A stretch of 64,000 nt of DNA, from contig PWMF01000192.1 of NCBI GenBank assembly GCA_003559215.1, forward strand, positions 124,001 to 188,000, given 5' to 3'. The position numbers were made by a program, and so were the translations under genes. The notes under the pieces were generated by a model, which was not told where the DNA came from, ran no database searches, and saw only the letters and a list, made by a program, of their open reading frames with translations. Below, one piece after another: positions 30,981 to 59,309 of the stretch (its first letter is position 1; each line of letters begins with the position of its first letter). Source of the DNA: Natrialbaceae archaeon. GTDB taxonomy: Archaea > Halobacteriota > Halobacteria > Halobacteriales > Natrialbaceae.

Positions 30981-33900
30981 ATGTACATCAAGGCGCTCGT
31001 CTTAGACAACTTCAAGAGCTTCGGACGCAAGACCAAGATTCCGTTCTACGAGGACTTCACTGTCGTCACCGGGCCGAACGGCTCCGGGAAGTCGAACATC
31101 ATCGACGCCGTCCTCTTCGCGCTGGGGCTCGCCCGGACCCGGGGTATCCGCGCCGAGAAGCTGACCGACCTCATCTACAACCCCGGTCACGAGGACGACG
31201 CCTCCTCGGGCGGTCCCCGCGAGGCGACCGTCGAGGTGATCCTCGACAACTCCGATCGAACGCTCGAGCGTTCCCAGGTCGTCAACGCCGCCGGCAGCGA
31301 CGATGTCGGCGACGTCGACGAGATCCGCATCCGCCGTCGGGTCAAGGAGACCGAGGACAACTACTACTCCTACTACTACCTCAACGACCGCTCGGTCAAC
31401 CTCTCGGACATCCAGGACCTGCTGGCCCAGGCCGGGGTCACCCCCGAGGGGTACAACGTCGTCATGCAGGGCGACGTCACCGAGATCATCAACATGACGC
31501 CCCACGCCCGCCGGGAGATCATCGACGAGATCGCCGGCGTCGCGGAGTTCGACGCCAAGAAGGAAGACGCCTTCGCGGAGCTCGAGACGGTACAGGAGCG
31601 GATCGACGAGGCCGAACTCCGGATCGAGGAGAAACGCGATCGCCTCGCCCAACTCGAAGACGAACGACGGGAAGCCCTTCGCTATCGACGGCTTCGCCGC
31701 GAGAAGGAGGAGTACGAGAGCTACAAGAAGGCCAGCGAGCTCGAGGAGAAACGCGAGGAGCTCGACGGGCTCGAGGCGAACGTCGACGACCTCGAGGACG
31801 AACTCGAGGAGCTCCGGCGTACGTTAGATGAGCGCCAGGGAACCGTCGTCCGTCTGCAGGAGGACCTCGAGGATCTGAACGCGGAGATCGAACGGAAAGG
31901 CGAGGACGAGCAGCTCCGGATCAAAGGCGAGATCGAGGAGATCAAGGGCGACATCTCCCGGCTCGAGGACAAGATCGAGGCCAGCGAAGAACAGATCGAG
32001 GCCGCCGAGTCCGATCGGCGAGAGGCGTTCGTCCAGATCGACCGCAAGCAGGAACAGGTCGACGAGCTCGAGGACGAGATCCGGGAGCATAAACTCGAGA
32101 AGGCGTCGGTCAAGACCGAGATCGCCGAACGCGAGACCGAACGCGACGAGCTCGAGGCCGAGATCGAGGCCGTCGACACCGAGTTCGACGAACTCAAGGC
32201 GGACCTCGCCGATCGCAAGGAGGACCTCGAGGCGGCCAAGACCGAACGGAACGATCTCCAGCGCGAGCAGGACCGCCTGCTTGACGAGGCCCGTCGGCGT
32301 TCGAACGCCATCAGCGAGACCGAGGAGACGATCGAGGAGAAACGCGCGACGCTTCCGGAACTCGAGGAACGGGAGTCGGATCTCGAGCGCGAGCTGCAGA
32401 AGGCCGAGACGAACCGCGAAAACATCGCGAGCGTCGTCGACGACTTGAAAGCCGAGAAGCGCCGGACCCAGTCGGAACTCGACGAACTCGACGACGAGAT
32501 CCAGGCGAAACAACAGGAGTACGCCGAACTCGAGGCAAAGGCCGGCGAGAGCGGCGACTCCTCGTTCGGCCGCGCGGTGACGACGATCCTGAACGCGGGG
32601 ATCGACGGCGTCCACGGCGCGGTCGCCCAGCTGGGATCGGTACCGGGCGAGTACGCCGTCGCCTGCGAGACCGCGGCCGGCGGCCGGCTCGCGAACGTGG
32701 TCGTCGACGACGACGGTGTCGGCCAGCGGTGTATCGAACACCTCAAATCGCGCAACGCTGGACGAGCGACCTTCCTCCCGATGACCGACATGCACGAGCG
32801 CCGGCTCCCGTCGGCGCCGACCGATCCCGGCATCGTCGGCTTCGCGTACGATCTGGTCGAGTTCGACGAGCAGTACGTGGGGATCTTCTCGTACGTGCTC
32901 GGCGATACGCTGGTCGTCGAGGACCTCGAGACGGCCCGCTCGTACACGGGTGACTACCGGATGGTCACCCTCGACGGCGACCTCGTCGAGAAAAGCGGCG
33001 CGATGACCGGGGGTTCCCGGAAGGGCTCTCGGTACTCCTTCACCGGCGGCGGCGAGGGCCAGCTCGAACGCGTCGCGAAGCGGATCACCGACCTGCAGGA
33101 AGAGCGCGAGGAACTGCGCGAGGAGCTCCGGGGCGTCGAGGATCGCCTCGACGACGCCCGCGACCGAAAGACGGACGCGGCCGACGAGGTCCGCTCGATC
33201 GAGAGCGAACTCGAGAGCATCGAGAGCGACCGCGAGGCGGTCCGAGACGAGATCGACGACCTCGAGAGCGAACTCGAGGACCTGCGCGAGGAACGCGAGT
33301 CGGTCGACGAGCGGATGACCGAGATCTCCGACGAGATCGACGTGAAGACCGGGCGAATCGAGGAGATCGAGGCCGATATCGAGGAGCTCGAGTCCGAACT
33401 CGCGGACTCGAAGATCCCCGAACTCACCGCACAGATCGAGGAGCTCGAGGACGAGATCGACGAGCGCGAGAACCGAATCGACGATCTCGACGGGAAGCTC
33501 AACGAGCTCCGCCTGGAGAAGGAGTACACCGAGGACGCCATCGAGGAGCTCCACGACGACATCGAGGAAGCCCAGAACCGGAAGGCGGACCACGAAGACC
33601 GGATCGAGGAACACGAGGCGACGATCGAGGAGAAACGCGAGGAGCTCGAGGCCAAACACGAGGCCGTCGCGGCACTCGAGGACGAGCTGACGGAGCTCAA
33701 GGACGACCGCAGCGAGCTCAAAGAGGGGCTCGCCGACGCCCGGACGAAACGCGACCAGCAACAGGACCGGGTCAACGCCGTCGAGAGCAAACTCGAGGAC
33801 AAGCGGGGTCGGCTCGAGGACCTCGAGTGGGAGATCGAGAGCCTCGAGGCCGAGGTCGGCGACTACGACCCCGAGGACGTCCCCGATCACGAGACGGTCC

Positions 33901-34562
33901 TCGAGACGATCGAGCTCCTGGGAGCCGACATGGAGGCGATGGAGCCGGTCAACATGCTCGCGATCGACGAGTACGACGAAGTCCGGGAGGATCTCGCGGA
34001 GCTCGAGGAGGGGAAGGCGACGCTGGTCGAGGAGGCCGACGGCATTCGCGACCGGATCGAGCAGTACGAGACCCAGAAGAAGCGGACGTTCATGGACGCC
34101 TACGAGGCGATCGCCGGCCACTTCACCGACATCTTCGAGCAGCTCTCGGAGGGGACCGGAACCCTCCACCTCGAGGACGAGGCCGATCCCTTCGAGGGCG
34201 GGCTGACGATGAAGGCCCAGCCGGGCGACAAGCCGATCCAGCGCCTGGACGCGATGTCGGGCGGCGAGAAGTCCCTGACCGCGCTGGCGTTTATTTTCGC
34301 GATCCAGCGGCACAACCCGGCGCCGTTCTACGCGCTCGACGAGATCGACGCCTTCCTCGACGCGGTCAACGCCGATCGGGTGGGTGAGATGGTCGACGAA
34401 CTCTCCGAGGACGCCCAGTTCGCGGTCGTCTCCCACCGCTCGGCGATGCTCGACCGCGCCGAGCGCGCGATCGGGGTAACGATGCAACGGGACAACGTGA
34501 GCGCGGTAACCGGTATCGACCTGGGCGACGGGGAGACGACGGAGGTTCCGGCCGATGACTAG
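30981..34562 (+). CDS. smc: Chromosome segregation ATPase Smc
   Basis: 1193-residue SMC ATPase that shapes and segregates chromosomes. Domain order is an N-terminal ATPase half with Walker A GPNGSGKSN (31-39), a coiled coil (about 170-500), a hinge (about 510-680, with the Gly-rich end SGAMTGGSRKGSRYSF), a second coiled coil, and a C-terminal ATPase half with signature AMSGGEKSLTALAFIFA and Walker B YALDEIDAFLD. The length is normal. A GGAGG sequence at 30963-30967 lies 13 bases before the ATG. It overlaps scpA by 8 bases, so the kleisin partner is translationally coupled. Confidence 0.97.
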   Translation: MYIKALVLDNFKSFGRKTKIPFYEDFTVVTGPNGSGKSNIIDAVLFALGLARTRGIRAEKLTDLIYNPGHEDDASSGGPREATVEVILDNSDRTLERSQVVNAAGSDDVGDVDEIRIRRRVKETEDNYYSYYYLNDRSVNLSDIQDLLAQAGVTPEGYNVVMQGDVTEIINMTPHARREIIDEIAGVAEFDAKKEDAFAELETVQERIDEAELRIEEKRDRLAQLEDERREALRYRRLRREKEEYESYKKASELEEKREELDGLEANVDDLEDELEELRRTLDERQGTVVRLQEDLEDLNAEIERKGEDEQLRIKGEIEEIKGDISRLEDKIEASEEQIEAAESDRREAFVQIDRKQEQVDELEDEIREHKLEKASVKTEIAERETERDELEAEIEAVDTEFDELKADLADRKEDLEAAKTERNDLQREQDRLLDEARRRSNAISETEETIEEKRATLPELEERESDLERELQKAETNRENIASVVDDLKAEKRRTQSELDELDDEIQAKQQEYAELEAKAGESGDSSFGRAVTTILNAGIDGVHGAVAQLGSVPGEYAVACETAAGGRLANVVVDDDGVGQRCIEHLKSRNAGRATFLPMTDMHERRLPSAPTDPGIVGFAYDLVEFDEQYVGIFSYVLGDTLVVEDLETARSYTGDYRMVTLDGDLVEKSGAMTGGSRKGSRYSFTGGGEGQLERVAKRITDLQEEREELREELRGVEDRLDDARDRKTDAADEVRSIESELESIESDREAVRDEIDDLESELEDLREERESVDERMTEISDEIDVKTGRIEEIEADIEELESELADSKIPELTAQIEELEDEIDERENRIDDLDGKLNELRLEKEYTEDAIEELHDDIEEAQNRKADHEDRIEEHEATIEEKREELEAKHEAVAALEDELTELKDDRSELKEGLADARTKRDQQQDRVNAVESKLEDKRGRLEDLEWEIESLEAEVGDYDPEDVPDHETVLETIELLGADMEAMEPVNMLAIDEYDEVREDLAELEEGKATLVEEADGIRDRIEQYETQKKRTFMDAYEAIAGHFTDIFEQLSEGTGTLHLEDEADPFEGGLTMKAQPGDKPIQRLDAMSGGEKSLTALAFIFAIQRHNPAPFYALDEIDAFLDAVNADRVGEMVDELSEDAQFAVVSHRSAMLDRAERAIGVTMQRDNVSAVTGIDLGDGETTEVPADD

Positions 34563-56582: not shown

Positions 56583-59309
56583 ATGACCGAGGCGGGCCAG
56601 ACTGGACTCGCGGAGTTTTCCCCCGAGTCCGCCGAACGGCCGGACGAAGAGGCAGCCGCCGTCGCCGGCGACGGGACGGGAGAGAGCACAGCCGTGATCG
56701 ACGTTCGCGAGGAGACGCTTCCGGAGTCGACCGGAGAGCTCGAGCTCGCCGTGATGCAGGTCGACTACACCATCGCCGGCTACGGCGACGACGAACGCCC
56801 GATCATGCACGTCTTCGGCCGGACGGCCGAGGGCGAGCTCGAGCACGTCCAGGTCGTCGGCTTTCGTCCGTACTTCTACGCGCCGACGGCGTCACTCGAG
56901 CGTCCGCCCGAGGAGGCCTACGACCGGCTCACCGGGAGCCGCGAGGAGGATCGAAACGGCGAGCCCTACGAGAGTATTCGCGGCAAAAAATTAGCCAAAA
57001 TCTTCGGGCAGACGCCCCGCGACGTCGGCCAGGTCCGCGACGAGTTCGAACACTACGAGGCCGACATCCTCTTCCCGAACCGGTTTCTGATCGACAAGGA
57101 CGTCCGCAGCGGGATTCGCGTTCCCGAGCGGCGGGCCGACGACGACTCGCTGGTCGTCCCCCACGAGGAGGTCGAAGCGACCGACGTCGACGCCGAGCCG
57201 CGGGTCCAAACGTTCGACATCGAGGTCGACGACCGTTCGGGGTTCCCCGAGGACGGCGAGGAGCCGATTATCTGCCTGACGAGCCACGATTCCTACCGCG
57301 ACGAGTACGTCATGTGGCTCTACGAGGCGCCCATCGGCGACGGACCGATCCCCGACGCGGTCGAGGAGTACGATCCCATAGAGGGCCCGATCGATCACGA
57401 GGTTCGCCGCTTCGCGGAGGAGGAGGCCATGCTCGAGGCCTTCGTCGACTATATTCGCGAAACGGATCCCGACGTGCTGACGGGGTGGAACTTCGAGGAT
57501 TTCGACGCGCCGTACCTGCTGGATCGCCTCGAGGAGCTCCAGGGCGGCCACGAGTACGACCTCGAAATCGACCGGCTCTCGCGGGTCGACGAGGTCTGGC
57601 GCAGCAACTGGGGCGGCCCCGACATCAAGGGTCGGGTCGTCTTCGACCTGCTCTACGGCTACCAACGGATGGTCTTCTCCGAACTCGACTCCTACCGCCT
57701 CGACGCCGTCGGCGAGTCGGAACTCGGGGGCGGCAAGGAACGCTACGCCGGCGACATCGGCGATCTCTGGGAGGACGATCCGACCCAGCTGCTCGCGTAC
57801 AACCTCCGGGACGTCGAGATCTGCGTCGAACTCGACCGCCAGCAGCAGATCATCCCCTTCTGGGACGAGGTCCGCTCGTTCGTCGGCTGCAAGCTCGAGG
57901 ACGCGCCGACGCCGGGCGACGCGGTCGACATGTACGTCCTCCACCAGGCTCACGGCCAGTTCGCCCTCCCCTCGAAGGGCCAGCAGGACGCCGGCGAGGA
58001 GTACGAGGGCGGGGCCGTCTTCGACCCGATTACGGGCGTCAAGGAGAACGTCACCGTGCTCGACCTGAAGTCGCTGTACCCGATGTGTATGACGACGATC
58101 AACGCCTCGCCGGAGACGCGGGTCGATCCCGCCGAGTACGACGGCGAGACCTACACGGCGCCCACCCAGCCCGAGCCGATCCACTTCCGAAAGGAACCCG
58201 ACGGCGTGATGCGCGAGATGATCACGGAGCTGCTCGCCGAGCGCGAGGAGAAGAAGGGACTTCGGAACGAGCACGAGCCCGGTAGCCCGGAGTACGAGCA
58301 GTACGACCGCCAGCAGGGTGCGGTAAAGGTTATCATGAACTCGCTCTACGGGGTGTCGGGATGGGAACAATTCAGATTATATGATAAAGAAGCAGCATCG
58401 GCGATCACCGCTACTGGGCGCGAGGTCATCGAATTTACCGAGACTGCTGCGAACGAGCTGAATTATCAAGTTACGTATGGTGACACCGATTCGGTCATGC
58501 TCGAGCTCGGTCCCGACGTCTCGAAGGACGAGGCCCTCGAGCACTCCTTTACCATCGAGGAGCACATCAACGACCGCTACGACGACTTCGCGCGGGAGGA
58601 CCTGAACGCCGAGGAGCACCGCTTCCAGATCGAGTTCGAGAAGCTCTACCGGCGCTTCTTCCAGGCGGGCAAGAAGAAACGCTACGCCGGCCACATCACC
58701 TGGAAGGAGGGGAAAGACGTCGACGACGTCGACATCGTCGGCTTCGAGTACCAGCGCTCGGACATCGCTCCGATCACCAAGGAGGTCCAACACCGCGTCA
58801 TCGAGATGATCGTCAAGGAAGGCGATATCGAGGGCGCCAAGGAGTACGTACAGGGTATCATCGAGAACGTCCGCGCGGGCGAGGTGAGCCTCGAGGAGAT
58901 CGCCATCCCGGGCGGGATCGGCAAACGCCTGGACAACTACGACACCGACACGGCCCAGGTTCGGGGCGCGAAGTACGCAAACCGGGTGCTCGGGACGAAC
59001 TTCCAGCGCGGGAGCAAGCCGAAGCGACTCTACCTCGAGCGTGTGGATCCCACCTTCTTCGAGCGACTCGAGGACGAGGAGGGACTCGACGCACGCCGGG
59101 ATCCCGTCTACGGCGCGTTCAAGCGCGATCCAGACGTCATCTGTTTTGAGTACGACGACCAGATCCCCGCGGAGTTCGCAGTTGACTACGACACGATGCT
59201 CGAGAAGACCCTGAAGGGGCCGATCTCGCGGATCCTCGAGGCGCTCGACGTCTCCTGGGAGGAAGTGAAATCCGGTCAGGAACAGACCGGACTCGACCAG
59301 TACTGGTGA
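56583..59309 (+). CDS. polB: Family B DNA polymerase
   Basis: 908-residue replicative-type polymerase. The 3'-5' exonuclease metal residues are D212/E214 in FDIEVDD, with Exo II in GWNFEDFDAPYL. Polymerase motif A is DLKSLYP (494-500), motif B KVIMNSLYG (NSLYG 586-590) and motif C YGDTDS (632-637). No intein interrupts these motifs, though both B and C are known intein insertion points in archaeal PolB. The stretch between them has unusually AT-rich codons (separate entry). A poorly conserved acidic N-terminus of about 50 residues precedes the core. Confidence 0.96.
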   Translation: MTEAGQTGLAEFSPESAERPDEEAAAVAGDGTGESTAVIDVREETLPESTGELELAVMQVDYTIAGYGDDERPIMHVFGRTAEGELEHVQVVGFRPYFYAPTASLERPPEEAYDRLTGSREEDRNGEPYESIRGKKLAKIFGQTPRDVGQVRDEFEHYEADILFPNRFLIDKDVRSGIRVPERRADDDSLVVPHEEVEATDVDAEPRVQTFDIEVDDRSGFPEDGEEPIICLTSHDSYRDEYVMWLYEAPIGDGPIPDAVEEYDPIEGPIDHEVRRFAEEEAMLEAFVDYIRETDPDVLTGWNFEDFDAPYLLDRLEELQGGHEYDLEIDRLSRVDEVWRSNWGGPDIKGRVVFDLLYGYQRMVFSELDSYRLDAVGESELGGGKERYAGDIGDLWEDDPTQLLAYNLRDVEICVELDRQQQIIPFWDEVRSFVGCKLEDAPTPGDAVDMYVLHQAHGQFALPSKGQQDAGEEYEGGAVFDPITGVKENVTVLDLKSLYPMCMTTINASPETRVDPAEYDGETYTAPTQPEPIHFRKEPDGVMREMITELLAEREEKKGLRNEHEPGSPEYEQYDRQQGAVKVIMNSLYGVSGWEQFRLYDKEAASAITATGREVIEFTETAANELNYQVTYGDTDSVMLELGPDVSKDEALEHSFTIEEHINDRYDDFAREDLNAEEHRFQIEFEKLYRRFFQAGKKKRYAGHITWKEGKDVDDVDIVGFEYQRSDIAPITKEVQHRVIEMIVKEGDIEGAKEYVQGIIENVRAGEVSLEEIAIPGGIGKRLDNYDTDTAQVRGAKYANRVLGTNFQRGSKPKRLYLERVDPTFFERLEDEEGLDARRDPVYGAFKRDPDVICFEYDDQIPAEFAVDYDTMLEKTLKGPISRILEALDVSWEEVKSGQEQTGLDQYW
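58359..58493 (+). other. Low-GC codon tract between polymerase motifs B and C
   Basis: Within polB, 45 codons from just after NSLYG to the end of YGDTDS contain 65 G/C of 135 bases (48%) and 21 of 45 GC-ending codons. Codons rare elsewhere in the window are common here: TTA, AGA, AAA, CAA, TAT, AAT, TTT, GCA, GTT. The protein sequence itself is normal. Flanking polB codons are almost all GC-ending. Interpreted as imported sequence, possibly a co-conversion tract of intein homing. Confidence 0.85.

Follow-up and report, generated by a model that had tools for sequence, protein, structure and literature searches.

In fungal mitochondria, exon diversity forms gradients beside mobile self-splicing introns (Repar and Warnecke 2017, PMC5378118). 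As at the locus described here, silent diversity is raised there beside endonuclease-driven elements and matches their present presence or absence imperfectly, and the candidate mechanisms, co-conversion and mutagenic repair, are the same. In haloarchaea, neighbouring extein DNA moves with inteins, as seen in the MCM genes of Haloferacales (PMC10643990). The polB gene of Halobacteria is host to the inteins polB-a to -d, which have a patchy distribution and home by gene conversion (PMC4071816; PMC3024317), a process shown experimentally in Hfx. volcanii (PMC3024317). That extein flanks move with inteins (PMC10643990) and that diversity is raised near mobile introns (PMC5378118) is therefore already known.

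Here, we analyse an intein-free polB from a Natrialbaceae archaeon, which lies in a stretch of 64,000 nucleotides of contig PWMF01000192.1 (hereafter the window). In the mitochondrial system the elements are organelle introns and the diversity is that of within-species SNPs (PMC5378118), whereas here they are inteins of archaeal replication genes, the shift in GC3 is strong, and two allele classes extend across genera. The work on Haloferacales MCM inteins concerned the codon adjoining the site and the splice-site residues (PMC10643990), while the effect described here covers tens of codons, in intein-free alleles, of four genes. Studies of polB-a to -d dealt with the same host gene and the same sites but treated the inteins (PMC4071816; PMC3024317), whereas our subject is the extein DNA beside unoccupied sites; neither codon nor GC content occurs as a term in PMC4071816. 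Among the open-access papers searched we found no account of codon or GC patterns at intein sites, and no earlier description of unoccupied intein sites marked by low GC3 in several haloarchaeal genes, or of a two-class polB-b/-c cassette.

Results

The polB gene of the window (Table 1) is present in one copy in its genome, and its whole coding sequence has 64.1% GC and a GC3 of 0.867. The initial annotation had drawn attention to positions 58359-58493, between the motifs NSLYG and YGDTDS, as a stretch of 48% GC with 21 of 45 codons GC-ending. On recount these figures are exact (48.1% GC, 21/45), and the motif coordinates are right, with the insertion points of intein carriers falling there. 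A search blind to those coordinates returned the core listed in Table 1 as the maximal low-GC3 segment of polB, with 20 GC-ending codons observed against 38.1 expected from amino-acid composition. Its score was reached in none of 5000 permutations and ranks first among the low-GC3 segments of the 44 likely genes of the window (21.1, against 11.2 for the runner-up). The full interval between sites b and c has 50.0% GC and 25 of 48 codons GC-ending, and the AT enrichment of this allele class sets in about 8 codons upstream of site b and ends at site c. The runner-up segment lies in an SMC gene (window 30981-34559), where it takes up 21 codons (codons 217-237, about 31632-31694) of a coiled-coil region in which we know of no intein site.

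Table 1. Features of the intein-free polB gene and its low-GC3 tract, in window coordinates (a slash marks the insertion point)
Feature	Position	Strand	Description and basis
polB	56583..59309	+	Family B DNA polymerase of 908 aa, host gene without intein; ORF with the Pfam domains DNA_pol_B and exonuclease
Upstream flank of site b	58314..58340	+	Haplotype CAG GGT GCG GTA AAG GTT ATC ATG AAC; AT ramp of the allele class starts here
Empty polB-b insertion point	58340..58341	+	MN/SLYG, codons 586/587; relatives' b-inteins sit exactly after codon 586
b-c extein cassette, exchangeable, of the low-GC3 class here	58341..58484	+	48 codons; two-class polymorphism, incongruent history, turnover with intein status
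Core of lowest GC3	58359..58490	+	44 codons, GC3 0.45; maximal scoring segment
Empty polB-c insertion point	58484..58485	+	YGD/TDS, codons 634/635; relatives' c-inteins sit exactly after codon 634

Insertion sites were mapped in a sample of 176 distinct haloarchaeal PolBs. Because sites b and c map to the positions given in Table 1, the core occupies the interval between them, both being empty; the tract adjoins real insertion points and is bounded by them, as co-conversion with inteins predicts. The haplotype immediately upstream of site b has an exact match in five other members of the family, and three of these six are b-intein carriers. The remaining PolB inteins sit after about codon 303 (site d) and about codon 496 (site a), where a dip in GC3 is found in carriers only (site d: p=8.6e-5, n=6; site a: n=4, weaker). 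Carriers of the d-intein from different genera have in common AT-rich flanking codons that are absent from non-carriers, and have Cys-Asp after the site in place of the Phe-Glu of non-carriers, so that amino acids, too, move with the intein. In the polB-d carriers L177, L179, L180, L181, L203, L211 and L212, the common extein haplotype takes in PolB codons 285-322. The third positions of the inteins are AT-richer than those of their hosts in nearly all cases (GC3 mostly 0.56-0.78, against about 0.76-0.95).

Along polB in Natrialbaceae, amino-acid-adjusted GC3 is lowest in the b-c region, which is also where synonymous divergence peaks and where the correlation with the remainder of the gene is weakest. 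The same three features mark this region in 61 other Halobacteria, with a dip that is more focal at b and c. Among 115 Natrialbaceae PolBs the GC3 of the b-c segment has a standard deviation of 0.157, against 0.081 or less in other windows of the gene, with values below 0.63 in 41 of the 115 and of at least 0.80 in 35. The pattern is thus no peculiarity of the window's locus, as might have been supposed, being present in those 41 PolBs and paralleled by dips in MCM, the PolD large subunit and RFC. Intein-free relatives with the AT-rich class are common, and L082, an intein-free sister, belongs to the tract class of the window's polB.

Alleles of the low-GC3 class have position-specific codons in common across genera, with an identity of 0.50 against 0.41 expected from pooled codon use, an expectation that control windows likewise exceed, by 0.03-0.07. 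Mapped onto a tree of polB outside the segment, class membership in the 115 Natrialbaceae shows 27 changes, against 7 on the segment's own tree (26 and 8 with classes cut at the median), a clustering on the segment tree that is partly built in, the class being defined by the segment's own composition. The tract hence has a phylogeny distinct from the remainder of polB, and an identical one, which would have spoken against any separate history, was not recovered.

Turnover of the tract follows intein status. Among 22 close pairs of genomes (less than 16% codon differences outside the region), all seven in which one member has an intein that the other lacks diverge at 38-71% of the codons of the segment and at 7-15% of those elsewhere, whereas only 3 of the 15 concordant pairs, each involving L098, show strong divergence of the segment; as the pairs have members in common, the Fisher value of 7e-4 is indicative only. 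In the discordant pairs the excess divergence begins near b and continues downstream for about 95 codons, largely on one side. In DP2 and MCM-a, too, pairs discordant in intein status have higher ratios of halo to rest divergence. Third-position identity between L065, which carries the c-intein, and L176, which carries the b-intein, is 0.58 in the tract and 0.91 outside the region. At the level of the family, replacement of the tract coincides with gain or loss of an intein. Sequence comparison indicates that gene conversion at the b-c segment is tied to intein turnover, and an exchangeable, intein-linked tract is well supported. The intein-free PolB of L098 has a low-GC3 b-c tract while those of its close intein-free relatives L020, L100 and L103 are of the GC class, which implies a swap of the tract without a present difference in inteins.

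Between the low-GC3 class and the b-intein the association is negative. In 21 phylogenetically independent pairs discordant in b-intein status about 9.1 go in opposite directions and 1.4 in the same direction (median p 0.02); a median cut gives the same trend, not significant (5.9 opposite, 1.9 same). DP2 and both MCM sites lean the same way as polB-b, none significantly when taken alone, and the four sites pooled give about 19 opposite and 5 same (p about 0.007), in a pooling chosen post hoc and with DP2 and MCM samples that are not random. Since the low-GC3 class opposes the b-intein, present b-donors tend to bring GC-richer tracts, and the idea that they had supplied the window's AT-rich tract does not hold. 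Nor is that tract nearer to an intein-bearing donor than is the rest of the gene, as had also been anticipated: third-position identity to the Natronococcus b-/c-carriers is 0.77 in the tract and 0.77 in the rest of polB for L178, 0.73 and 0.80 for L065, and 0.67 and 0.80 for L176. As the carriers are no nearer in the tract, an old, clade-inherited tract is as likely as a recent event.

A search for a low-GC donor found none, and the nearest tracts of most low-class genomes are 0.5-0.8 identical at the codon level. We set aside a viral source (viral PolBs are too distant, at about 52-53% identity, and no viral sequence matched the degenerate core pattern) and a plasmid one (two haloarchaeal plasmid PolBs, 66-72% identical over the segment). 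A single recent mobile haplotype was likewise dismissed, long identical runs between distant genomes being scarce in the tract, as was the c-intein as an order-wide source of the low-GC3 class, for c-carriers outside the family dip no more than intein-free genes do.

Other replication genes show a similar footprint. At the level of the family, an intein site coincides with or lies close to the 12 codons of lowest GC3 in intein-free alleles of PolB, MCM, DP2 and the RFC small subunit. The dip in DP2 spans about ±33 codons, and the RFC site, GTGK/T, was confirmed in two carriers. The per-gene chance levels of 0.04-0.07 have a product of about 6e-6, which is a guide and not a clean test, as the question itself arose from PolB and the RFC site was fixed in advance of its confirmation. 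In our one intein-free control gene, RadA, the conserved P-loop shows no dip in the family, and highly conserved stretches away from the intein sites of three intein genes show none either (-0.001 to +0.019). The dip at motifs without inteins that a general codon effect of conserved motifs calls for was thus not seen.

Discussion

We propose that the tract is one allele, from an old low-GC3 class, of an extein cassette lying between two intein sites, which has been replaced by gene conversion during the gain and loss of haloarchaeal inteins; we give this account somewhat better than even chances. Homing endonucleases would cut intein-free alleles at b or c, repair would copy the intein and a short neighbouring extein from the partner allele, and later loss or reversal would swap the same stretch again. 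Repeated exchange with inteins would give the cassette a genealogy of its own and let it escape the strong GC3 bias of its host. Endonuclease cutting is the probable driver of exchange at the cassette, and its low GC3 presumably derives from an old pool of donors with weaker codon bias. Against this account stand the anti-association with the b-intein, by which present b-donors are not the source of the class, the failure to find a low-GC donor, the swapped tracts of the three concordant intein-free pairs with L098, and the c-carriers outside the family, whose dip is no stronger than that of intein-free genes.

The initial annotation had offered a more specific history, in which an intein from an AT-richer relative entered the lineage at b and/or c, with co-conversion of the tract, and was then precisely lost, or in which an intein-bearing relative was the direct donor in a conversion of the tract. 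Parts of it stand: the tract and the remainder of polB differ in history, the tract is swapped with intein status, and AT-rich haplotypes travel with the d-intein. It also agrees with the AT richness of c- and d-inteins, with the haplotype upstream of b that the window has in common with some b-carriers, and with the presence of the b-/c-carriers L178, L176 and L065 among the closest Natronococcus relatives of the tract. An origin from present b-donors and the expected closeness to carriers are the parts that found no support, for identity to those three carriers is no higher in the tract than elsewhere, the intein-free sister L082 is of the same class, and the low-GC3 class opposes the b-intein in independent pairs; we therefore think this history rather unlikely for the window. 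Also unlikely, but a little less so, is recoding as an escape from homing, in which synonymous changes near the site reduce cutting or conversion so that divergent low-GC3 alleles persist in intein-free lineages. Such escape would account for the raised synonymous divergence and for the anti-association, including its non-significant counterparts at DP2 and MCM, and among intein-free alleles the low class has 2.31 mismatches to the nearest b-carrier target in 30 nt, against 1.0 in the GC class. The halo of 30 to 60 codons is, however, broader than a LAGLIDADG target, and the changes span the whole b-c interval where a homing-resistant allele should have them confined to the target. Moreover, the dip at d and a is in carriers and not in free alleles, and the window's own b target departs from those of carriers at only 2-3 of 30 nt, while such enzymes tolerate single synonymous changes according to the Hfx. 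volcanii work (PMC3024317).

Mutagenic repair, by which repeated endonuclease cuts would turn the flanks into mutational hotspots where changes accumulate in place, has been discussed as an alternative for yeast mitochondrial introns (PMC5378118) and fits both the rise in synonymous divergence and the flattened codon usage around the sites. We consider it improbable, because low-class alleles have position-specific codons in common across genera and cluster on the tract tree (7 changes vs 27), which points to exchange, and because the left and right sides of the sites show no consistent strand asymmetry; strand-asymmetric deamination around the cuts, tried as a candidate, gave no consistent pattern. 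Least probable of all, to a degree that we barely entertain it, is a cause unconnected with inteins, whether a function at the codon or RNA level, such as pausing or structure, or a feature that conserved active-site motifs show in general. Inteins occupy precisely such motifs, so that the two are confounded, but many members of the family (the 35 of 115 noted above) have GC-rich codons there, and neither the conserved stretches off intein sites nor the RadA P-loop dips. The tract has no Rfam match and a fold that is not unusual (z 0.06), and we regard a function purely at the RNA or codon level as unlikely. As sources of the AT richness, old donors of weak bias, escape recoding and mutagenic repair could possibly act jointly.

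A broader proposal is tentative, and we would sooner doubt it than rely on it: intein sites in haloarchaeal replication genes may leave a lasting low-GC3 footprint in intein-free alleles, with polB b-c as a trans-species two-class polymorphism in which low GC3 is the mark, and perhaps the protection, of alleles without an intein. These alleles would then be engaged with homing endonucleases in an arms race at the nucleotide level that hardly touches the protein. If true, past intein traffic could be read from the codon composition of intein-free genes alone, which would help to gauge the frequency of intein gain and loss in the homing cycle. Inteins would then also alter essential replication genes over tens of codons while the protein stays almost as it was, a point that bears on phylogenies built from these genes. 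Homing resistance at the nucleotide level becomes directly testable through the anti-association with the b-intein.

The window's own genome also has occupied intein sites. Its MCM gene (L217, G000:C13:29500-33600) has a mini-intein of 181 aa at the Walker A site, GTGK/S, and the extein codons after it are AT-richer, with a GC3 of 0.60-0.65 over about 40 codons. Its PolD large subunit gene, DP2 (L218, G000:C190:50500-57600), has a full-length intein in the RRN/CDGDED motif, flanked by exteins of reduced GC3.
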